Shown one piece after another: positions 1,982-59,825 of a stretch of 64,000 bases of DNA; position 1 is the first letter of the stretch; the number at the start of each line of letters is the position of its first letter. Source of the DNA: Prasinococcaceae sp. CCMP 1430. Lineage: Eukaryota; Prasinodermophyta; Palmophyllophyceae; Prasinococcales; Prasinococcaceae. The DNA is taken from NCBI GenBank assembly GCA_013416795.1, contig RQSC01000062.1:78448-142447 (forward strand). The letters run 5' to 3'. The position numbers and the translations under genes are program-made. The notes beneath the pieces are model-generated. The model did no database searches and was not told where the DNA came from. It was given only the letters and a program-made list of their open reading frames with translations.

Positions 1982-3091
1982 ATGTCACGGGCGTGGTGGT
2001 GTTGGCTCGCACGCGCTGGCACGCCGGCACGGGCGCGCGCCGCGCCCCGCTGGCGTGAGCGGTGCAGGCGCAGGCGCAGGGGGCGGGCGCTGTGGCGTGC
2101 GGGAACTGCGGCCATAGGGCCCTCGTTCCCGCCGACGACGGCCGTCGGCTCGGATGCGTGGAGCGCGTTCGGGCGAGCGGCTTCCGGCGAGTGGGACGGT
2201 GCGCTCGTGGCGTTTGACGCGCTCAGTGGCGCGCCACTGCCGCTGCCCGACCGCCTCGTGCCCGAGGCGTTCCGGGAGTGGGGGGAAGCGCTCTACGATC
2301 GGCAAGCCGAGTCGCACGTGCTCGCTGACGACGAGCGACTCGAGCTACGAACGCGGCTCGTGGACCCCGTCGCTGGCTGCGAGGAGGACGCAGTCAGTTT
2401 CGAGGAGGAGCTCAGGGACGTGCTGCGCGGCGCGACGGAGGACAAGACCATCCTGCCCTCGGGCGCGTTCTCCGCTGGCTGCCGCGTACTGCCGCGCGCA
2501 GGTGATGAGTTTTTGCTCGAGTGCGCAGTGCCACTCGCGCGGGGAGACGAGCGCCTTAGGTACAGGCACTACATACGCGAGCGCGCAGGCGGAGAGCAAC
2601 CCGCCGTGCGCCTCCAGGTGATTGCAGAGCGGCGCGTTGGCGAGCACCACACCGCGATGGGGCTCTCGCAGCCGCTGCCGCCTTCCACATGCGCGGGGAG
2701 CTACCCCGAGTGGGGTAAGGGTGGCATCGTGCGCTGCGCAGAGGAGGAAGCCGACCGCAACGATTCTGAGGGGCCTTCGCCGCGGGCCTTCCTCGACGGC
2801 CCTGGCGTGGCCGAGCGCGCCTGTGTGGTGCTCGGAGAGGGTCCTGGGGGCCAGACCGTCAACGATCTGGGCGAGCCGTGGCTCGCGCTCGATGCGTCCC
2901 GCAGCGTCGACTCAACGTCCCTACCACCGCTCGTCCCGCTGCTCGCGGGCGCTTTCGGTGCGTACCATGCGGCCAGCGCTACGGCCGACGGCTCGCTCGT
3001 GATCGTCGCCGGCCACCGCGATGGGTGCATTGTGCGCGCGTACGACTCGAACGGCCGGCTCGACTACGTGCAACTCGCCCAGCGATCCTAA
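1982..3091 (+). CDS. Probable plastid protein of unknown function
   Basis: A single 369-residue frame runs from ATG 1982 to TAA. The first ~55 residues are extremely Arg/Ala-rich and low in acidic residues, as expected of a transit peptide. The conserved part starts near residue 61 with WSAFGRAASGEWDGALVAFD, followed by AFREWGEALYDRQ and LADDERLELRTRLVDPVAGC. These signatures resemble, from memory, a plant and algal chloroplast family of unknown function with the same WS.FG...SGEWDG / REWE..YDWQ / LADD / GCE.DA order. The C-terminal half, with a GSLVIVAGHRDGC strand, is less familiar. There are no membrane segments. It converges with the Myb gene (180-base spacer). The exact N terminus is uncertain. 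Confidence 0.7.
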   Translation: MSRAWWCWLARAGTPARARAAPRWRERCRRRRRGRALWRAGTAAIGPSFPPTTAVGSDAWSAFGRAASGEWDGALVAFDALSGAPLPLPDRLVPEAFREWGEALYDRQAESHVLADDERLELRTRLVDPVAGCEEDAVSFEEELRDVLRGATEDKTILPSGAFSAGCRVLPRAGDEFLLECAVPLARGDERLRYRHYIRERAGGEQPAVRLQVIAERRVGEHHTAMGLSQPLPPSTCAGSYPEWGKGGIVRCAEEEADRNDSEGPSPRAFLDGPGVAERACVVLGEGPGGQTVNDLGEPWLALDASRSVDSTSLPPLVPLLAGAFGAYHAASATADGSLVIVAGHRDGCIVRAYDSNGRLDYVQLAQRS

Positions 3092-3271
3092 TATGCAGCG
3101 CACGCACGCACGCAGCGCTGCGCGCGCGCACCATCGCTCAACACCTGGCGGCTCGGGGCCGCCGTTTACTGTACAGTGAGAAATGAAAAAGAATTACGAC
3201 CCTGTGGCGGCGTGGCGCGAGCGAGCGCCCCCAGGCTCTCAACTACTTGTGCTGCGTGCGTCTACGGTCCT

Positions 3272-3733
3272 TCACTTCTTGGTGCACTTGTATCGTCGGC
3301 AAAGCTTCATGTAGTACTTCTGCGCGTGGCTGCGCACCTGCACGGCGGTGCGCGTCCCAACGTCTGCGGCGATGGCCTCAAAGTTTTCCGCGCCGTACTT
3401 CTTGACCGCCACATGGAAGCGCTCGCATTCATCCTTGCTCCAGTAGCGAGTGCTTGCTGAGCCGGCACCGCCGCCGTGCGCATTTGGGCGTGGCTTGGGG
3501 CTCCGCTTCTTCACTCCGCCTCCAGCCGTAGAGCCGGTAGCCCGCGTCTTCTTGGTCGATCTGAAGCTCTCTTCGATCGCGGTCTGCCTGCTCGTGGGCG
3601 TGGGAGTGTCCACCGGCACCAGCACGGCCGGCGCGTCCAGCACGGGCGGCACTGGCACACGCATCATGGCCACGGCGACGGTATCCGCTGAGATGGGGAG
3701 ACGTGCCGTCATGCATACCTGGGAGGATGCCAT
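3272..3733 (-). CDS. SHAQKY-class single-repeat Myb transcription factor
   Basis: A 153-residue single-exon protein read from ATG 3733 to TGA. Residues ~94-153 form one Myb/SANT repeat: RYWSKDECERFHVAVKKYG, the AIAADVGTRTAVQVRSHAQ recognition helix, then KYY and a basic tail. The SHAQKYF signature defines the plant-type 1R-Myb class (CCA1/RVE-like and DIV-like factors). Here the last residue is Tyr, giving SHAQKYY. The first Trp of the repeat is present and the second is replaced by Phe (ENFEAIA), as in many 1R-Mybs. The N-terminal 90 residues are Pro/Thr/Val-rich, then basic with a KKRSPKPRP nuclear-localisation-like cluster. It is likely a nuclear DNA-binding regulator, targets unknown. The repeat sits at the extreme C terminus, so no separate activation domain follows. 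Confidence 0.85.
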   Translation of the reverse strand: MASSQVCMTARLPISADTVAVAMMRVPVPPVLDAPAVLVPVDTPTPTSRQTAIEESFRSTKKTRATGSTAGGGVKKRSPKPRPNAHGGGAGSASTRYWSKDECERFHVAVKKYGAENFEAIAADVGTRTAVQVRSHAQKYYMKLCRRYKCTKK

Positions 3734-4546
3734 AGTCGTGCCTTCACGCGAGTGCCTCTCCGTATCCGTCTGGTGCTCTCTCGCCCGAGTGCGTCGTGCG
3801 GTGCGTCTCCGCTTGTGGTGCGCACAGTGGCGCGCAACGGTGAGCGCATGGAAGGCGCGCGTGCGTGCGCGCGTGCGCGTGCGCGCCTTCGCGCCCCCCC
3901 CCCCCTCCTGTTCGATTGCACGATGCACGGGGCACGGGCCACTCGATTGCACGGAGCACAGAGCACGGGGCACGGGGCACGGGGCACGGCGCGCGGCGCG
4001 CGCGCGACGCGCGCCACGACGCCCGTTCGTGCCCGCGGAGGCTATCCGCATCGGGCGAATGTTTTGAAAAGGTCTCCCGTCTCTCGTCATGATCAAAAAT
4101 CGTACAGTAACGGTCGCCGCCAGTTGGCAGCCAGGGGAGCGCGCGCCCGGCTGCGGCGATGCGCATCGGGATTGCTGCTGCTCGCCAGGAGGAACAGGAA
4201 CGCCGCGCGAGGCCTGCATTGCCGAGCCGCTGCCGCTGCGGTCAAGTGCCGGGGGGGGGGAAGCGCTCGCGGGACGGCCGCGGTCGCGCGGGACTGCTCG
4301 CAGGACGGCCGCGGCCGCGCGAGCGGACCGATGTTGCGCGGAGGTCCGCGGGCGCGCACGCGCGGGGACGGCGCACCCGCAGGCGGCCGCAGCTCGCGTT
4401 TTCCCCACCATTTCCGTCCCGAAAAAGAAAAATTAAAATACTGTAGTTATGAAGTGCTGAGCTGGCGGGGCGCTGCCCGCCACTCTCGCCCGCGCTCGCG
4501 CGCGCGTGCGCGTGCGCGTGCCTGCCAGCCCCTGCCGCGGCGTGCC
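3734..4546. promoter_or_regulatory. Divergent intergenic region between Myb and HCCA-isomerase genes
   Basis: About 810 bases separate the start codons of the divergent Myb (minus) and tandem HCCA-isomerase (plus) genes, so both 5' regulatory regions must lie here. It contains a run of imperfect gcacgggg/gcacggg units (about 3920-3995), a CG-alternating stretch (3860-3890) and a comparatively AT-rich island near 4420-4450 (gaaaaagaaaaattaaaatactgtagtta), a possible promoter core about 100 bases upstream of ATG 4547. No TATA box can be assigned with confidence. Confidence 0.35.
3957..3997 (+). repeat. Tandem gcacggg(g) short repeat
   Basis: Units of roughly 7-8 bases (gcacggagcacagagcacggggcacggggcacggggcacggc) repeat head to tail upstream of the Myb gene. 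This looks like a young simple-sequence expansion in the shared promoter region. No coding function is seen. Confidence 0.6.
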
Positions 4547-6219
4547 ATGGCGGGTGACGGCGGAGGAACCGGCGCGCGCGCTCCACACGTGGAGTTCTTC
4601 TTCGACGTGGCGTGCCCGTTCGCGTTCGTGGCGTCCTACAAGGTGGAGGCCGCCGCCCGCGCCGCCGGTGCGGCGGGCGTCGAGTGGTCGCCGGTCGCTT
4701 TGGGCGGGGTGTATAGGGACGTGAAGGCGCCGCAGGGGACGCGCTCAGCGTCAGTGGTGATGTGCGCAGCGAAGTGTGCCATGGTGGGCAATGACCTGCG
4801 CGTGATGGCCGCGCGTGCGGGGGCGCCGCTGTGTGGCAACACGCGACACCCGGTGCGCACGCTGCGCGCGCTGCGATGCATATGTGCGGCTCCGCCGAAG
4901 GACCGGGCTCGTCTCTCACGCGTGCTCTTCGAGGCGTACTGGCGCGATGGGCGAGACCTCGGAGACGAGGCTGAGTTGATACGCGTGCTCACTGCGTTTG
5001 ATGCCTCCCGTGCCGCTGGGCTGCTCGCCGCCTCCGAGAAGGAGGATGTCAAGGTGCGGTGCGCAACGCGAGCGTGCGCGTGCTGCGCGCGCAGTCGATC
5101 GCGCGCATTTCGCTCACCCATCTTGCGCGCACGTTCGAACTTGCCCGCTCGCACACGCCCAGGCGGCGCTGCGCGAGCACAGCGAACGGCTTGTCGAGTT
5201 GGGAGGATTCGGAGTGCCCGCGTATGTCGTGCGGCGGCCTTGGCCTGGCGGAGTGGACGGGAAGCTTTGGTGGGGACAAGACGTCCTGCATTTCGTGGCT
5301 GCGGATTGCAGAGAGCTCGACACTCCCGAGCTACCACAACCGAGGCAGTTGCGACTCGAACCTACTGCCAGAAAGCCTCGGTGTGTGTTCTCGAAATCTT
5401 TGCCTTTGAGTCGCCGCTCGCGCACGGGTGCGCCTGCGACAAAGACCAACATCCTGACGAAAATGCGCCCCCCCCCGCGCGCACGAACGCACGAACAGCA
5501 CGCTTGTGCTGTACGAGGACGTGGCCAGCCCATTCTCCTACTTGGCGTCGACGGCCGCGGAGGCGCTCGCCGAGCGCTGTCGGGTGCGCCTACTACGCCG
5601 ACCGGTCCTCGTGGGCGCTCTCTTCAGGGAAATTGGCACGCCCATGGTGCCTATTGCTCATGCGGGTGAGGCCAAGGCTGCCTACCTGCGCAGAGAGATG
5701 GAGGCATGGGCGGCTGCACGGGGTGTGCCCATCTGTGTGCCTCACCCGCACTTCCCGCTGAGGACAACGCTTGCGCAGCGCGTGCTTGCGGGGCTTGCGC
5801 ATGTGGTCGAGGCCGCGGACGAGGGCACGGCCGCCGAGCAGCGTGCGCGTGCACGGCTGTCTGCCGCATCGCGCGCGCTATACACCGCCGCGTGGGCGCG
5901 CGGCGAGGACGTTGGCCAGCCCGGTGTAGTGGTCGCGGCGCTGGAGGCGGCCGGTTTTGGCGCCCTCGGGGCGCGCGAGGTCGTCGACAAGGCTAAGGTG
6001 AATGGCGGTGATGCGCTCCGGTCCAACACCGCTGAGGCCATCGCCGCGGGCGCATGCGGCGTGCCTACCTTTGTGGTGGATCTGGTTGAGAGGGGCGGCC
6101 AAGCCGCGAACACGCCCGCATCCTGCGCGCTCGTGTGGGGCCAGGACCGCATGCATGTCGTCGAGGAGTTGCTGCGCGGATGGGCGCCCCCTTCGCGCCT
6201 GCCATCGGCGCGGCTATAG
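4547..6219 (+). CDS. Tandem two-domain HCCA isomerase / GST-kappa (DsbA-fold) protein
   Basis: Three exons join in frame: 4547-5053 (donor GTGCGG), 5163-5380 (after CGCCCAG; donor GTGTGT) and 5499-6219 (after CGAACAG, ending TAG), giving 481 residues. The protein contains two copies of the DsbA-like thioredoxin-fold domain of 2-hydroxychromene-2-carboxylate isomerases and kappa-class glutathione transferases. Copy 1 begins VEFFFDVACPFAFVASYKVE and ends with GVPAYVV and WWGQDVLHFV. Copy 2 begins LVLYEDVASPFSYLASTAAE and ends with GVPTFVV and VWGQDRMHVV. The family's active-site Ser of the (D/S)PYS motif is Ser in copy 2 but Cys in copy 1. The GVP cis-proline loop is present in both. Family members use glutathione as cofactor or substrate. 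The substrate here is unknown. There is no obvious targeting peptide. Confidence 0.88.
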
Positions 6220-6278
6220 GAGGGACCCGACGTCCTATTAACAACAAATAGTCACTAGACTAGTACTAGACTCGCACA

Positions 6279-7569
6279 TCACGGCTGGCCGTTCGCTTCA
6301 CCGTCCGCCTTTGAGACGAACGGATCCTCGTCGTCCTCGTCCTCTTCCTCGTTCCCAAGCGACCTCCCCAGCACTAGATCGTAAAAGCCGCCACCGCACA
6401 CGGCGCCAACGATGGGCGCCAGGATGTACACCCAGAATCCGTCGCGCGGCCCCGCGATTGCTACGTCACCCCAGCCCGCGATAGCCGCCACGATGCGAGG
6501 CCCGAAGTCGCGAGCGGGGTTCCACCCAGCCTGCGTAATTGGCGCGTACAGGCTAAGGTTGACGCCCACGAGCGCGCCAATCATGAACGGCACGGCCACC
6601 TTTGCGTTTCCTCCGCCGATGGCAGTGTTGCGCGGGTCGGTGAGCGCGAAGATCACGAAAGCCAGCAGCGCGGTGCCCCATGCCTCCACCAGGAAGGCGT
6701 GGCCGAGGCTGCACGCCTGCAGATTGTTTGAGACGGCTGTGGGTGGGCCGGCGCGTGGATGAGAGTAGGCGGTGCGCATGCGTGCGCGGCAAGCGTGGCA
6801 CGCGAGGCTGTGGGCGTTAGGACGCTGAAGGGTCGCTCAGGGGGGCCGCCCGCGCGCGGCATGCACGCGTTCGCCGGCCTGCTCGCTCGCTCGAACGCGC
6901 GCACGCACCATCCGCCTCTCCCGTGTGCGCGTAGAGGTACGGGTTCGGGAAGTACTCGCCGAACGCCGCCGCCGTCAGTATGCTCTCCGGCTCCCCCCGC
7001 ACAATGCCGTTGGAGCGCTCGTAGTGGTGGATGATGCCATTGAAGATCATGAGGTTGAGAGCGCCGCCAAGAATGCCCCCTAGCAGCTGCGCTGCAATGT
7101 AGTGAGGCACCTTCGACCACTCGAAGTCCCTGAGCGTGGCAAGTGCAATAGTGATGGCCGGGTTGAGGTGGGCCCCCGACACATGGGCGGTGGTGTAGAT
7201 TGCGAGGGACACGCCGAGCCACCACACCACGGCCACCTGCCAAATGCCCGCCTGGGCTCCACTGAGCGCGGCGCACACGACGCCGCAGCCGAACAGCACG
7301 ATGAGCGCCGTGCCCCACAGCTCGGCGATGAATTCGCCAGCGGTTTTCGTCTCGAGGAACCGCGTCTGCCTGACCACCCAACGCGCGAGCTGCGAGCGGC
7401 GCGGCGCCTTGTGGACGGCCACGGCCGCAGCCTGGGGCTCGTGCACGCACATGGTGCGCCGCGCCGCGCTGCGCGCCGCCGCGTCGCGCCGTCCGCCCCA
7501 AGTGGCGCGCAAGAGCCGCCGCCGCGGAATCTCAGCCGCCACTTGCGCCGCGCTCGAGCATCTTTTCAT
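6279..7569 (-). CDS. Aquaglyceroporin (MIP family, GlpF type)
   Basis: Two exons, 7569-6909 and 6736-6279, join in phase (G|CC) to give about 372 residues. The intron has a GTGCGT donor and a CCCACAG acceptor. The channel has two hemipores: SGAHLNPAIT carries the first NPA motif and GWNPARDFGPR the second. The Asp after the second NPA (NPARD) is the hallmark of glycerol facilitators and aquaglyceroporins rather than strict water channels. Six hydrophobic helices are visible, among them LWGTALIVLFGCGVVCAAL, VAVVWWLGVSLAIY, LVEAWGTALLAFVIFAL and VYILAPIVGAVCGG. The C terminus is acidic (NEEEDEDDEDPF). The N terminus is basic, and its start is uncertain because an in-frame upstream ATG exists at 7659. 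Expected role: passive glycerol or small-solute flux across the plasma or an internal membrane, for example in osmoregulation. Confidence 0.92.
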
Positions 7570-8458
7570 ACTTTCGAGCGCGCCGCGCGCGCGCGCACTC
7601 GGGGAACGGTCGGTGGCCGCCTTCCGCGTTGGCCCGAATTCGCGACCCGCAAGGCGCACGACTCGCGGTGCTGTGTAAGAAGCTTCTTAGCAGTCGTGTC
7701 TGAGCGTCCCGCGGGCGCCAGCAGCGCCGAGCAGCGCCGAGCAGCGCCGAGCCGTTCCCGCACGCGCGGCGCGGTCGCCGCCGGCCAGGCTGTGGCTGCT
7801 CATGTCGGCCAGGTCTTCGGGTGTGCAGCGCGCGCCCGCGCCCCGCGCGCGCGCCCGCCGGCTCGGAGCTCTATTCAGGGTTTAGAACTTTCAACCCCAA
7901 TACGGTAGTCCTCACGTTTGGGTTCAGATACACGTTTTCGCCATCCTGCTGTGCTCCGCCGCGTCGTGTGGCCAGCAGCGCTCCTGGGGCGCACCCAGGA
8001 TTTCAAGGAGAAATTCCGCGGGCGGAGCGGCAGCGGGCCCCGGCGCGCGCGCGCGCCGCAGACCGGCGGAACCACGGGTCTACGCGCGTGGATTGCGGGG
8101 TAAGAAACGATTACCGGGTATGTGCGTCTCACACCCGAGTAATTTGATGGGGCATGACCGGGGTCGGGCGAGGTCCAAGAGCGCGCGCGCGCGCGCGCGC
8201 CAGGCTGCCGCCCCCCCACCCACCCCCCTGCCTGCTCCGCCCCGCCCGCCCCCGCGCGCTTCCACGCGAGTCGAGGCGCGCGCGTGGGCTGGGAGGCTGG
8301 TCCCACCGCNCGGGGTGGTGACCGCGCTGTTTCGAGCGCGCGCCCAAAAGGCGGCGCCGCCGCCACAGCGCGCGCCGGGAGCGCGTGCAACCGCGCGGCG
8401 CCACTCGCCTGATCCGGTCTCTCGGCGGGGCGCGCGGGCGTGTGACACGCGCCGCGTC
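7570..8458. promoter_or_regulatory. Divergent intergenic region with a single N
   Basis: About 890 bases between the divergent aquaporin and RING genes. It contains a 12-base unit (agcagcgccgag) repeated about three times near 7720-7755, an AT-richer island at 7865-7935, a (CG)n alternating run at about 8180-8201 that could adopt Z-DNA, and one ambiguous base at 8310. No coding exon is supported. Confidence 0.4.
8310..8310. other. Single ambiguous base (N)
   Basis: One N lies in ccgcNcggggtgg between the aquaporin and RING genes. Isolated Ns in this window may mark joins or unresolved GC-rich bases. Here no gene is broken by it. Confidence 0.9.
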
Positions 8459-37253: not shown

Positions 37254-39350
37254 ATGTCGCAGCGCCCGAGCACACGCCGCGCGGCCGACGCGGAGGATGA
37301 CGCAGCGGCGCGCTTCAAGCACCTCATCGAGCCTATCCGCGACCTTGCCAAGAACTGGAACGTCGACGTCGCGTCCGAGCTTGAGGACTACATCGGCGAG
37401 CTCGAGTCCATATCGTTCTCTGCGGACGGCGGTGTGACACAACTGAACTTCGCTGAGGCCGCGCTGCTCATCCAGGGCAGCGCGTGCATCTACTCAAAGA
37501 AGGTCGAGTACCTCTACGAGCTCGTGTTCCAGGCGATCAACTTCATCGAAAAGCGCAAGAGGAAGGAGAGGGAGGCGGCCAAGCTCGGTTCGAGCGTCAG
37601 TGCGGATGGCGCCGACAAGGACGTGGACCCCCTCGACGAGGACGAGCTCGATTTCCTCATGCTCGACGACGACATCCCCGAGGCCGAGGAAAGGGCCATC
37701 AACATGCGCGAGAAGGACCTGGAGATGGAGACGTGCCCACCGCCGACGGCGTACCGTCCAAAGTTCCCGTGGCTTCTGCGCCAGGCCACCGACCGTGGCG
37801 ACGGCGAGTACAACCTGAGCCAGATGCACGTTCACCGCTCGGGCGCGCTGCTGCTCGACCAGGGTGACATCAAGGCGCTCGACGACAACCTGGAGCCCGT
37901 CGCACAGCCCAACTTTGAGGACATTAACGCCGCCGGTGACTTCGGTGCGGGTGGATACGACGACGACGACGACTTCGGCGACGGCGGCAGCGGCGACTTC
38001 GGTGAGGGTGGTGCGCCCGGCGAAGCCCCTGCCAGCGGCTACTGGGTAGCGCAAGAGCGCGCGGCAGGAGGGAACGTGCCGCCGACGCCGGCGCTGACCT
38101 TGCATGGCGAAGATGAGGAGGAGTACAACCCGTACGAGCCGCTGGATGCCGACGACGCCAAGGGCGTGGGCAAGCTCACCGTGCGGCCCTTCCGGAAGGG
38201 GCGCACGCAGCTCAGCAAGTCGGCTATCGAAGGCGAGCCCGTCGGCGCCTCGCCCGCGGAGGGCGTGTCGCGCAGCGGCGTCGACCATGGAGTGCGCGTG
38301 TCCGCCGCGCCGACGGCGCCGACGGTGCTGTCGCAGCCCGCCTTCAAGGAATTCTCGTTCGCCTTCGAGGCCGCGCGGCGGGCCGCGCGCGCCCTGCGGA
38401 GGGCGAATGCGCGCCGCCTTAGTGGGCTGTCGCCGGGTCCTGGCCAGCGTGCGGCCGAGCTCACGCCCGGAAGCCGCGCGGCGGCATTTGACGCGCCCGC
38501 GGCGCAGGATGATCCCGGCTACGAGGACGACATGCCCGACTTCGGTGGCGGTGGAGATGACTTCGACGACGACGTGGATGGCGACATGGGTGCTTTCCCC
38601 GATGTTGGCGAGCAGGGGGCAGCGGGCACGTTTGGCTGGCTTTCCGGGGACGGCAACAACGCGGCCGCGCTGTCCACGCCGCGCTCGGCCTCGGCAGCGG
38701 TGTCGTATGCCGAGCTGGTGCGCGCCAAGGTGGACGAGCTGCTGGCGCGCACACTGGCGTCGGAGCGCGTGACGGAGCTCTCGCGGCGCGTGACCAATTG
38801 GCGTGACCAGATCGAGCCCGCGCTTGAGGAGGAGGAGAAGGCGGCGGCTTTCGACATCCACCAATACGGCGACGGCGTGCTCAGTGCGGTGGCCATGGAC
38901 GCCAAGACGGGCAAGCGCAAGGCCGACGACGTCGTTCGTGGCACCAAGATCGATTTCGCCGACGTCTTCGCCGCCGCGCGCCGCGCCAAGGTGGACGAGG
39001 CCACGTCGCGCGGCGAGGATCCTTCGACGGCGGGGGCGGGCACCGAGGCCGGCGAAATCGCGCGCACTTTTGCGGCGACGTTGCAGCTCATCAACGACGG
39101 GGCGCTGGAGATTGAGGCGATCGTGGATGACAGTGAGAGTGAGGTTGGAGAGGGCGGTGCGGGGGCTGCGGACGCCGGAGTGGCGAAGAGCTTCAAGATC
39201 ACGGTGCTTAACCCACACAGGCAAGAAATCACCACCGCGTATGACCAGATCGATGGGGGGGAGAATGTCGCGGCGCAGGCAGAGGCGAAGAAGCGCAAGG
39301 GCTCGAAGCGCGCAACTGCGGACACCGCCTTGCGTGAGACACAGGCGTGA
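37254..39350 (+). CDS. NCAPH2: Condensin II complex subunit H2 (kleisin-beta)
   Basis: A single exon of 698 residues. The N terminus [20 protein letters not shown], then [20 protein letters not shown] and [15 protein letters not shown], is the diagnostic CAP-H2 N-terminal domain that contacts the SMC2 neck. Later blocks also match: YNPYEPLD plus PFRKGRTQL in the middle, [37 protein letters not shown] and [14 protein letters not shown] near the C terminus (the kleisin winged-helix region that binds SMC4). Asp/Gly-rich acidic linkers (~215-260, ~420-460) separate them. CAP-H2 bridges SMC2/SMC4 and recruits CAP-D3/CAP-G2 in condensin II, which acts in the nucleus on early mitotic chromosome folding. 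The length compares well with ~605-680 residues elsewhere. Confidence 0.95.
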
Positions 39351-53582: not shown

Positions 53583-54147
53583 CCCGCGCGGCGTCCCCAG
53601 CGGCACCGTCGACGCCAGTGCCGATCGATCCCAACGCCAGCGCCCGCAGTGCGCGTGCAGCCACCCGCCGGGGCGAGCGGCGCACGCGCGCACGGCGGGC
53701 CGTCTCCTTCTTGCGCTCGAGCTCCTCCTTGCGCCGCTTGAATTCTTTGTGCATCTGGTCGAGGCGAGGAAAGCGGTACCGCGCCCGCCGCGCCCCGCCA
53801 CGCGCGCGCCAGCCCACCGCCGGCGCACTCCGATTCGGCTGCAGCGCAGCGCAAGCGATTTGAGGAGGAAAGCTTCTCACACGTGTGCACTGTGCCATCG
53901 TGCTTCAAATTCTGGTGATTGATGGCCTGGGGGTCAGCAACAAAACTGCGCCGATTTCGCCACTCGGGCCCTCGCCGGCGCGACGCTGCGCGTGCGACGC
54001 ACGACGCGCGCCTGCGACTGTGCCACACGGCGCCCTACGCGCGCGTGGACTCTGCTTGCGCCAGCAGGTGGCCGACTGGCGCTGCGGCGCGGCGCGTGAG
54101 CGCGGGCGGCCGTGCAGTGCGCGCGTATCCTCTGGCCGACAGGGGAG

Positions 54148-56033
54148 ATGGTGGCCGCGTCGTTGCCCGCCATTGTTGCCAGCGGAGCAGTCTTGGGCAT
54201 CGTTGCACGTGCCGCGGCGCTGCCGCCTGCCACCGGCGCGTCCGACCTGGAAGTGCAGGGCAGCACGCCGCCGGCGCCCGACACTGGCTACTACGAACAA
54301 ACGCTGGACCATTTCAGCCCGGTTGACAACCGCACGTGGTCGCAGCGCTACCTGTTCAGCAACACGTCGTGGGACGGCAGTGGCGAGCTGCCGAATGGAT
54401 GTCGCGGTCCCGTTCTGCTCTACACCGGCAACGAGGGCCCTATAGACGAGTTCTATTCGGGCAACGGTTTTGTGACGGAGGTCCTCGCGCCGGCTCTCGG
54501 CGCCTTCACGCTTTTCATCGAAGAGCGCTACTACGGCGAGAGCCTGCCTTTCGGTGACTCCACGTGGAACACGTCTTCGCCCAGCTACGACGCCGCCAAC
54601 CTACGGTACCTCACGACCGAGCAGGTTCTCGCTGATTACAACGTGCTGGTGCAGGACCTTAAGAATGCGACGCCGGGAATGGAGAACTGCCCCGTCGTCG
54701 CCTTCGGCGGCTCGTACGGTGCCACCCTGTCCACGTTTTTTCGTCTCGCGTACCCCAACACAGTCATCGGCGCCCTGGCCGCCAGCGCGCCCACTGGCTA
54801 CTACGACTCGCAGGCATGGCCGCAGTACGACGTCAACGACTTCACCTGGAGTTCAATCGTCGTCGATACGTACCTCTCCGCTGGCGGTCAGCCCTGTTTG
54901 GATGCCATCAACTCCGCCGTGGCTGCCATCGGAGCCACCCCGGTTGACCAGCTCGTTGAGGCTTTCAATGTGTGCAATGCATCAGGCCTTGGGCCAACCA
55001 CCAACGCCGACCTCTTCACTTATACTCTCGAGGGGTACCCTCAGTTGGATTACCCTTGCCCAGTGCCGCCGCTGCCCGCAAAGCCCGCGACAGCCGCGTG
55101 CGTTGTGCTGACCGAGGCCGCCGCCAACGGCACGAACGAGGCGCTGATCTCCGCGGCGGCAGAGGTCACGACCTGGGGGCAAGGCAACCCCGATGGCTCG
55201 TGCATCCAGACGCTGCCCGAAGGGCCCGGCGACGTGCCGGGTGACGGCCCTGGCCCTGGGGCCTGGGGATACCAGAGTTGCACGCAGACTCTTCACCCGT
55301 TCAGCTCGTCGACGCTCGATGGCCGTGGGTTGCGCAATTTCTCGTTCGTCTTGGCCGACGAGGAAGCCGTCTGCGACCAGAACTTCAACAGCACCGTCTC
55401 CCCCGATCTCGAAGCGCTCACGCGCACGTACGGCGGGTACACCATCCCCGCCAACATGATGGGCATCACCAACATCATCTGGTCGAATGGTACGCCGAAG
55501 ATTCATTGACGACGGCGCACGGCACGCGGCCGACACCAGCGCGCCCTTTCGACTCGGATGCGGCAGCCTCGCTCGTGCGGGCAATGCCGTCTTTGCGCCG
55601 CGCGTGGCGCACCGCTCTCCTTCATCTGACGCGTTTGCCCACGCCTCTCGCCCATTCAGGAAACCTCGATCCCTGGCACGGCGGGGGCTTCTATCCCCAG
55701 GGAACGGTGTGGTCTAACGCCAGCCAGCTGCACGTCGACGCCGGCCGCGGGCGGCACTTCATCTGGATCGATGGCGGTGCCCACCACGCCGATCTGCGCG
55801 GTCCTTGCCCGGCGGACCCCCCAGCGCTCACGCAAGCACGCGCGCTCGAACAGGGTACGTTGCTGCGGCAAGGCTCGGCGCCTTGTGCTTGTGTGTGAGA
55901 GCGCGAGCGTGCCCGCAGCAGCGCGCGATTGGCCGCGGCGTCTGACAGTCTGACTCGCGCCCATGCCCCGGCATCCTCTTCCCCATTCGAAGACATCATC
56001 ACCGCCTGGATCCTCGAGGCGGCCTCGGCGTGA
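54148..56033 (+). CDS. Secreted serine carboxypeptidase, S28 (prolyl carboxypeptidase) family
   Basis: Three exons, 54148-55489 (TCG AAT G|GTACGC), 55660-55854 (after CCATTCAG; CAG G|GTACGT) and 55993-56033 (after TTCGAAG), join in phase to give ~525 residues. A signal peptide opens the protein (MVAASLPAIVASGAVLGIV then ARA). The family start YYEQTLDHFSPVDNRTWSQR is followed by PVLLYTGNEGPIDEFY, FIEERYYGESLPFG and the nucleophile elbow VVAFGGSYGATLSTFFRLAYP (Ser). The second exon supplies NLDPWHGGGFYPQG (Asp) and WIDGGAHHADLRGP (His). The triad is complete. S28 enzymes cleave Pro-X at C termini or X-Pro at N termini in acidic compartments or outside the cell. Many Asn-X-Thr/Ser sites and Cys suggest secretion. 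The tiny last exon encodes DIITAWILEAASA. Confidence 0.93.
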
Positions 56034-56318: not shown

Positions 56319-56393
56319 ATGGCGTGCCACCGGAGACCACACCGCGGGCGCCGCGGCTCGGGGCGCAGAGTGCAGCTGCCCCGGGCCGGCGCG

Positions 56394-59300
56394 ATGGGGC
56401 GCGCGGCGCTCCTCTCCACGGGCGCCGCGGCGGCGCTCCTCCTCAGCCTGGCCGTGTCGGAGAATGCCGCGGCGTCTCCCGCATGTCGTACGAGTCGAGA
56501 CTGCAACTCGCCGATACCTTACTCCGCGCTAGCCGCGCGGCCGGCAGGGCCGAACGATGGCTACACGCCGGACGTGCTCGCGTCGGCGGGTGTGAGCGTC
56601 GAGCACGCTGCTGGGCTCGACCACGGCCTGCGCGTAACGGCCGCATTCCTGGGTGAGGTCTACCCCGCGCCTGCGTTCCTGTACGAGCCGGAAGGCCCCG
56701 ACGAGAGCTACGCGCAGGTGACGGAGGCCTTCTGTGCACAACAGAGCTTGTTTTGGGAAGACCCGAACTGCGGGTCATCCGAAGTCAGGTCGGCGCAGGG
56801 CGGGGGCGGCCAGTACTACGTCTCCACTTTGCCGCACTGCGATGAGAAGTGCGGGGAGAACGAGGCGGCCATCGCGCCGCTCTTCATAATGCCGGGCAGC
56901 AACAGCAATGGCGTCGACGTCGCCGCGCGCGCGGTGCACGAGTATACGCACGCCTTCCAATTCCTGCATGGCGGTCTGATCCCCGCGTGGCTGATGGAGG
57001 GCGGTGCAGTGCAACTCGAATGTCTGCTCGCCTCGCAGCTGCACTCGCCGCCCAAATACGACTACTTCTCCGGTTCGTACAGCAGTTGCTTCAAGTATGG
57101 AGGGGGCGGCGGGGGTATCCTGCGCAACACATTCAGCGGCTACCAGCCCGATGGCGGCGCCGCGCGCCCCGCGTTCGCCGACCTGCGGTATGCGGATGAC
57201 CGCTGCTGCGATACCGACCCCGCCTGCCCGCGAGACAGCACGTTGCACATCCCGAGTGGCCGAGACGATCCGACATCCAAGTACGGTCCAGGCTATGATC
57301 GCAAGCTCATATACGACGCCGGCGCCTATGCCGTTGCCTTCGCCATCCATCGAGCGAACTCGTCGAGCGCCGACTTCTGGCGCTCGATGTCCAAGGGCTT
57401 CTGGCACACCATCGCGTCCGTGCCGGTCGGGTCCACCGACTACGTGTCGTCGTACCCGAGCATGGTACCCGAGGGAGTCGGCTGGAAGGCGGCGCTCTGC
57501 AACTTCACGGGCGATGCCACTGTGGAGGATTTCTACGCTGCCTTCGAGGCCCACGTTCTTGCCGCTGGGGACGCCGACGCGCTGGCTGCGGTGCTTGAGT
57601 CCGATGCTGACATCGCCGCACAGGCGGCAACCGTCGCGGACGTCCTCGGTGGCGACTATCGCACTGCCGGGGAGAGGGCATGTTCCGCGGGGTCGAGCCC
57701 GAGCCCGTACGCAGACACGCGAAACTCGCCCCCGTGGAGCTACGGCGGCTCGCCGCCGTGGAGCACATGCAACAATGGCCTTTGCCCCGAGGGCTGGAAG
57801 GGCGACGGCACGTGCGACGATGCATGCAGAAATCCCGACTGCGGATGGGACCACGGCGATTGCTGTACGACCGTTACCGGCTGCAAGGACAAGTGGCTCG
57901 GCGACGGCCACTGCGATGACCAGTGCAACAACGAGATCTGCGAGTGGGATCGCGGCGACTGCGGCCACGACGAGCACCAAGACGACAAGTCGCCCCACAA
58001 CAACACCGACAGTGGGAGCACATGCAACAATGGCCTTTGCCCCGAGGGCTGGAAGGGCGACGGCACGTGCGACGATGCATGCAGAAATCCCGACTGCGGA
58101 TGGGACCACGGCGATTGCTGTACGACCGTTACCGGCTGCAAGGACAAGTGGCTCGGCGACGGCCACTGCGATGACCAGTGCAACAACGAGATCTGCGAGT
58201 GGGATCGCGGCGACTGCGGCCACGACGAGCACCAAGACGACCACCACGACGGCAATCACTGTGATGAGAACATGTGTCCGCATAAATGGAAGGGCGACGG
58301 CACGTGCGACGACGCTTGCATGAACCCTGAGTGCGAATGGGACTGGGGCGACTGCTGCAGTGAATGGGAGAATTGCGAGAACAAGTGGCTCGGCGACGGC
58401 TACTGCGATGAGTCGTGCAACAATAATGCTTGCGGGTGGGATTGGGGGGACTGCGACCACGACGACCATCACGACGACCACCACGACGACCACCACGACG
58501 GCAATCACTGTGATGAGAACATGTGTCCTCACAAATGGAAGGGCGACGGCACGTGCGACGACGCGTGCATGAACCCCGAGTGCGAATGGGACTGGGGCGA
58601 CTGCTGCAGTGAATGGGAGAATTGCGAGAACAAGTGGCTCGGCGACGGCGACTGCGATGAGTCGTGCAACAATGATGCTTGCGAGTGGGATTGGGGGGAC
58701 TGCGACCACGACGACCACCACGACGACCACAACGACGACCACCACGACGAAAACCCCTGTGATGAGTCAACGTGCCCCCCTGAATTCAAAGGCAACGGAA
58801 TGTGTGACTATGACTGCATGAGCCCCGAGTGCCACTGGGACTACGGCGACTGCTGCGCTGAGTGGAGCGATTGCAAGAACAAATGGCTCGGTGACGGCGA
58901 CTGTGACGACCAGTGCAATATCGATGTCTGCATGTACGACCAAGGCGACTGCGGATGGCCTGATGATGGACACCACGACGACCACCACGACGAGCACTAC
59001 TGCGACGAGGTGATGTGTCCGGACACCTGGAGGGGAGACGGCCAGTGCGACGATGCTTGCATGAGCCCCGAGTGCGGGTGGGACTACGGCGACTGCTGTG
59101 GCGAGTGGAGCGATTGCAAGAACAAGTGGCTCGGCGACGGCGACTGTGACGACCAGTTGCAAAACGAGTACTGCGAGTGGGATCGCGGCGACTGCGACCA
59201 CGACGACCACTGGGACGACCACCATGACGACCACCACGACGATCACCATGACGGCTTCGACGACTGCAAGTGCCCCGACAGCTGGGTGGGTGACGGCGTG

Positions 59301-59825
59301 TGCGACGAGCGCTGCGACAACGAGGAGTGCGGCTACGACGGCGGCGACTGCCAGTGCCATCCCAACTGCCCGTACACTTCGTGGATCGGCGACGGCGTGT
59401 GCGGTGCGTCACCACGCCTGTGCGCACGCTCTATAGCGCGCGCGCAGTTGAGATGCCTGAGGCAACCGTGCGCTCCGCCCTGACACGCGCGCGTCCCCGC
59501 CCGCCCTCGCACCCTCGACCCACACGCCTGCCCAATTCACTCATTGACAATCCAAACTCCCCCCACCCCCCGAAATGCAGATGCCGGATGCAACCGCAAG
59601 GCCTGCGACTTCGACGGCGGCGACTGCGTACCGGTGGACACAGGCAAGAAGACGGAAAAGAAGAAGAAGAAGAACAAAAAGAAGGACAAGAAGAAGAAGA
59701 AGCTCTCGAAGAAGCAGGTCAAGAAGCTCTGCAAGAAAGCGAAGAAGTCGAAGAAGAAGTGCAAGAAGGGCGACGCCAAGAAGAACTGCAAGTTCAGCAA
59801 GAAGAAGGGCTGCGTCCCCAAGTAG
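56394..59825 (+). CDS. Secreted metallopeptidase-like protein with 14 Notch (LNR) repeats and poly-Lys tail
   Basis: Exon 56394-59403 (TGC G|GTGCGT; an earlier in-frame ATG exists at 56319) and exon 59581-59825 (after AAATGCAG) join G|AT to give ~1084 residues. A signal peptide (MGRAALLSTGAAAALLLSLA) precedes a ~440-residue domain with the zinc motif HEYTHAFQF (56937) and a downstream WLMEGGAVQLE, the HExxH...E layout of gluzincin peptidases. Then come 14 Lin12/Notch repeats of the form C..xWxGDGxCDxxCxNxxCxWDxGDC, mostly in pairs, separated by linkers rich in His and Asp (GHDEHQDDHHDGNH, DHDDHHDDHHDDHHDGNH) likely to bind metal. LNRs fold around Ca2+ and three disulphides. The C-terminal ~60 residues are Lys-rich (KKTEKKKKKNKKKDKKKKK) with four Cys. 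Probably extracellular and cell-wall or matrix associated. The substrate is unknown. Confidence 0.88.
57761..58241 (+). repeat. Exact tandem duplication within the LNR array
   Basis: The block 57761-57986 (226 bases, two LNR repeats) is repeated without a visible mismatch at 58016-58241, with a 29-base spacer between. The following pair of units (58250-58500 versus 58502-58752) is nearly identical too. The array therefore grew by recent duplication of an LNR pair plus its His/Asp linker. Confidence 0.85.

Follow-up and report, generated by a model that had tools for sequence, protein, structure and literature searches.

A Lys-rich tail with four cysteines closes a gene at positions 56394-59825 of the window (the whole stretch of 64,000 nucleotides analysed here) and at least 18 further genes in this genome. 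In this count the copies on contig C31 and those on contigs C69 and C108 are each taken once, and a stray copy on contig C3 is left out. We found the tail in no Pfam family or solved structure and in no paper, and it has the look of a previously undescribed label by which proteins are addressed or anchored to the cell surface. Our preferred reading, held with moderate confidence, is that it is a wall or matrix retention module, carried in the window by a secreted protein with an LNR array and a metallopeptidase-like domain. This protein would have three working parts. The first is an N-terminal zinc-metallopeptidase-like domain (HExxH with a downstream Glu) that is predicted to bind zinc and may be proteolytic. 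The second is a set of 14 LNR modules of the calcium type with acidic, His-rich hinges, which may bind calcium. The third is the cationic four-Cys module, which follows a Lys-rich spacer and is attached by the genome to many otherwise unrelated proteins. Stabilised by disulfides, the tail would bind a polyanionic wall or mucilage electrostatically, so that its carriers are held around the cell, while the LNR array would space or present the protease at the cell surface.

Gene structure and the shared C-terminal tail

The overall anatomy and the coordinates given by the sequence-only reading hold, with a Met at 56394 and a spliced frame that runs to the stop codon. The open reading frame spans 56319-59483 and its best start is this Met, at the head of a hydrophobic signal peptide, MGRAALLSTGAAAALLLSLAVSENAAAS. 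The signal peptide covers about residues 1-28 (56394-56477; here and below, features lie on the forward strand) and places a hydrophobic 12-mer, GAAAALLLSLAV, behind a short basic N-terminus. Exon 1 (56394-59403) and exon 2 (59581-59825) are joined in frame across a 177 nt intron (GT at 59404, AG at 59580) that lies inside LNR 14, yielding 1,084 residues and a stop codon. Support for the intron comes from the spliced product, in which LNR 14 becomes complete and a tail with matches in many other genes is gained. The order of parts is signal peptide, HEYTH...WLMEG domain, 14 LNRs with His/Asp-rich linkers and Lys-rich end. The earlier description of a secreted, LNR-rich, metallopeptidase-like protein finds support.

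The long reverse-strand open reading frame at 56775-58745 was rejected as a shadow of the LNR repeats. Rfam and tRNA scans of the window returned nothing, and its GC content is about 68%. The same genome gives 22 matches to the chlorophyll a/b-binding family and is therefore that of a photosynthetic eukaryote, probably a small green alga. A serine carboxypeptidase S28 gene, whose product is perhaps secreted as well, lies directly upstream of the LNR gene (54112-55509; Pfam E 1.1e-41), and a gene for the condensin II subunit CAP-H2 is found at 37254-39350.

The end of the protein, earlier taken as poly-Lys, is indeed Lys-rich, but it comprises a Lys-rich spacer (59646-59702) and then a conserved four-Cys module rather than plain poly-Lys. 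With its stop codon the module occupies 59703-59825, and it has 21 further genomic copies. The aligned copies give a 39-residue core with the consensus LSKKQVKKLCKxAKSKKxCKKGDAKKxCxFSKKKGCxPK, and K7, C10, K17, C20, G23, C29, C37 and P39 are invariant in 21 of them. A protein search of the genome with the last 61 residues of the window protein gave 22 matches, its own copy included. The same 22 were returned by a 38-residue query made from the other copies, and a DNA pattern for the tail finds all copies but the one on C51. The core stops at the stop codon in 20 of the 21 aligned copies. The exception is the first of a tandem pair on C31 (L124, C31:184500-188500), where two tail modules at 2699-2932 close one reading frame. 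No difference separates the copies on C69 and C108, which may come from a single gene that was assembled twice. Among the three tails on C3, one adjoins an RCC1 gene and is not clearly within it.

Similarity among these genes is confined to the tail. Blastn matched the tail region in 132 of the 190 pairs formed by 20 terminal copies, compared with 3 pairs for the 580 nt upstream of the tail and 2, both duplicate pairs, for the 400 nt after the stop codon. Synonymous divergence (pS) exceeded nonsynonymous divergence (pN) in 199 of 210 pairs of tail copies, despite an AAG codon bias that damps synonymous change, and the tail is under purifying selection. The last 220 residues of 13 carriers contain no segment of transmembrane strength (top 19-residue hydropathy 1.41, outside the tail). 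Because similarity is limited to the tail, synonymous change is in excess and a nearby transmembrane segment is lacking, the tail is a protein module. It is very improbable that the tail is instead a copied DNA element or a gene-conversion product with no function of its own. The many copies, and the close likeness of the tails of the window, C24 and C102, would suit such an origin, but the similarity does not extend upstream or past the stop codon and the synonymous excess argues against it.

Pfam assigns the tail to no family. Only weak matches were obtained, with 6 of 20 members hitting a Paramecium surface antigen domain (best E 0.016), a candidate that we rejected as chance Cys spacing. 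Searches with the tail found no solved structure and no viral relative, and a literature search with its sequence pieces found no paper.

Carriers of the tail and its possible role

The carriers are mostly unrelated to each other. Pfam identifies among them a GH19 chitinase, a protein with Temptin_C and Cu2_monoox_C, a Peptidase_M60 protein, a protein with DOMON and a complete Cu2_monooxygenase, and RCC1 repeats in two genes on C3. On C60 (L128, 868-3999), TED, A2M and receptor-binding domains lie in the exon before the tail exon, and this carrier is probably an alpha-2-macroglobulin, an algal thioester-type protein, as judged from these domains. The tail exon is joined to the upstream exons by assumption in this gene and in four others (L119, L120, L122 and L132). 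An esterase-like carrier scores just below the Pfam cut-offs, and the remaining carriers have no Pfam domain assigned. All of the six starts that were scored, among them that of the window protein, have hydrophobic signal peptides. Proteins with RCC1 repeats often reside inside the cell, and the RCC1 carriers count against retention at the surface, though one of them has a clear signal peptide. The suggestion that the window protein is matrix-bound was made earlier, when its tail was seen only as a cationic end; it gains indirect support from the tail being common to the other 18 or more genes.

The main rival, which we consider unlikely, gives the tail the role of a sorting or processing signal. 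It would be read in the secretory pathway and cut off by the time the protein is delivered, like bacterial C-terminal sorting domains, and the mature protein would be free or attached in some other way. A strict C-terminal position, a single tag on unrelated cargo and purifying selection would all be expected of such a signal, and a cleaved tag would look identical in the genome. However, the sequence upstream of the core shows no short cleavage motif that is invariant, there is no transmembrane segment of the kind seen in LPXTG or PEP-CTERM tags, and the four invariant cysteines suggest a folded module that stays on. Whether retained or cleaved, the tail would belong to an LNR protein that is probably an extracellular, surface-associated protease or scaffold.

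LPXTG, PEP-CTERM and type IX CTD are bacterial C-terminal tags found on many unrelated secreted proteins. The tail described here resembles them in being one C-terminal module across many unrelated secreted proteins; it differs in being rich in Cys and Lys, in having no transmembrane segment nearby and in belonging to a photosynthetic eukaryote. It is a tentative possibility that the tail serves a whole algal lineage as a dedicated cell-surface address. This address would be read by its own machinery or polymer and would assemble a coat of hydrolases, oxidases, inhibitors and the LNR protease, which would make it a eukaryotic counterpart of the bacterial sorting tags. A membrane-active or antimicrobial role, in which the Lys-rich, Cys-bearing tail is delivered together with hydrolases against microbes, appears improbable. 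Several carriers are hydrolases and the positive charge is strong (+31 over 65 residues), but the tail is also found on copper monooxygenases, RCC1-repeat proteins and apparently an alpha-2-macroglobulin, none of which is an obvious attack enzyme.

Among described systems, the closest analogue that we found is in diatoms, where short pentalysine clusters or Lys-enriched regions in silaffins and cingulins direct secreted proteins to the silica cell wall (PMC9650480, citing Poulsen et al. 2013). The likeness is that both are Lys-rich segments on secreted algal proteins. The diatom clusters are 12-14 residues long and contain five spaced lysines with no stated Cys frame (PMC9650480), whereas the tail has a 39-residue four-Cys core at the extreme C-terminus. 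If the tail does retain proteins at the surface, the proteins of the alga's wall and matrix could be recognised by a simple rule at the sequence level, and the tail could be moved to other proteins to display them at the surface.

The HEYTH domain

The N-terminal domain (about residues 29-440; 56478-57713) bears the gluzincin (clan MA(E)) signature. HEYTH at residues 182-186 (56937-56951) is presumed to be zinc-binding and catalytic, and Glu202 of the downstream WLMEG (56997-56999) is the presumed third zinc ligand. Together they fit the pattern HEYxHxxQ-x9-W-hydrophobic-x-EG-x-A. M9 collagenases are gluzincin-like and have HEYxHxxQ...WxxEGxA. Searched as a DNA pattern in bacterial and archaeal genomes, the signature gave 76 matches in 75 stretches. 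All 76 sit in open frames with a similar context and, by our own estimate, well below one match would be expected by chance; the motif therefore marks real proteins.

Outside the motif the domain stands apart. Pfam returned only LNR for the window protein and has no match for this domain. The MXAN_6640 HExxH-type gluzincins share its motif and spacing but have no significant similarity elsewhere, and the NF045524 model for them, the nearest in NCBIfam, scores the window domain at 17 bits against a curated cut-off of 140. The nearest match (L033, from Pseudohongiella) was rejected as a full-length homologue; its similarity beyond the motif is no better than that of shuffled sequence. This match is confined to its own genome among 369 in its class. 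No usable relatives were found in viral contigs, phages or plasmids, and no second copy of the domain was found elsewhere in the same genome. Two structure predictions, made from the sequence alone and with 12 sequences, had mean pLDDT values of 35 and 37, both below 40, and a fold search with these low-confidence models gave no match at E <= 0.001. The HEYTH...Glu202 signature is intact, but neither a Pfam match nor significant similarity outside the motif accompanies it. "Metallopeptidase-like" is a fair label, with "peptidase" read from the motif.

PAPP-A and the other pappalysins are metzincins of family M43, with HExxHxxGxxH and LNRs. The window protein is like PAPP-A in combining a secreted metallopeptidase-type domain and LNR modules on one chain. 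In keeping with the view that the two differ in peptidase type, the pappalysin motif is absent from the window protein, which has HEYTHAFQFLH with Gln replacing Gly and gives no M43 match in Pfam. It differs further in its gluzincin-type HExxHxxQxxH with WLMEG, its paired LNRs with H/D linkers and its shared four-Cys tail. Beside PAPP-A, the LNR protein would be a second case in which a metallopeptidase-type domain has been joined with LNRs, useful for asking why this pairing recurs. Notch and stealth proteins have the same LNR module (PF00066), which is the only family that Pfam finds in the window protein; none of the other Notch domains (EGF and ankyrin repeats) or stealth domains was detected in it.

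The LNR array and its His/Asp linkers

The LNR family scores 228 bits against a cut-off of 21.2 (E 8.8e-69), and Pfam marks 13 stretches in exon 1. With the repeat split by the intron, these make up the 14 LNRs counted earlier. Every LNR has six cysteines except LNR 12 (CDDQLQNEYC), in which one was lost, apparently through two compensating one-base changes. The proposed arrangement in seven pairs is seen in six direct pairs with a CC junction, but the seventh is looser. By Pfam and Cys counts, LNRs 1-12 with five mostly H/D linkers span 57768-59195; LNR 13 follows at 59265-59351 and LNR 14, interrupted by the intron, at 59355-59627. A 255-bp unit is repeated at 100% identity in LNR pairs 1 and 2 (57760-58241), so that one of these may have arisen by duplication very recently or be an artefact of assembly. 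Since the two pairs are identical in DNA, the true repeat number depends on the assembly. Between diverged pairs pS is 0.43-0.70 against a pN of 0.18-0.27, and the LNR units therefore evolve under constraint.

The linkers between pairs are 14-20 residues long and chiefly H/D, and the sixth and longest, DHDDHWDDHHDDHHDDHHDGFDD, precedes LNR 13 (59196-59264). The description of these linkers as H/D repeats is accurate for most of their residues, but the first linker, GHDEHQDDKSPHNNTDSGST, is mixed. Similar linkers, for example DHDDHHDDHHDDEPS, also separate the LNR pairs of a related gene at the end of contig C113. The upstream part of this gene is lost at the contig end, and the stretch read contains no tail exon. 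The linkers are therefore not confined to the window gene, which argues against mere slippage within one gene.

The C113 gene and the composition of the 561-residue repeat region (43 His, 125 Asp, net charge -134) are what would be expected if the window protein served mainly as a scaffold that binds metal or mineral. Calcium or transition metals would then be bound by the H/D linkers and the LNRs, and the HEYTH domain would lack protease activity. This explanation concerns the N-terminal and repeat parts and is compatible with either reading of the tail. We think it quite unlikely, as the HExxH and its downstream Glu are intact and match a pattern widespread in prokaryotes.

In the same genome, another Cys-rich domain, about 88 residues long (CPEPQVMN...TCGF), recurs on contigs C113, C51, C59 and C76, in LNR-bearing and other genes, with up to three copies on C59. 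An LNR gene on C76 (L022, C76:1-10000), in a stretch that runs into N, combines an internal Lys-rich segment with Asp/Tyr linkers and FG-GAP-like repeats. On C36 (L024, C36:8000-17999; 2760-8090), an open frame of 1,777 codons encodes LNRs followed by a long PSI-like Cys-repeat array and acidic E/P repeats.
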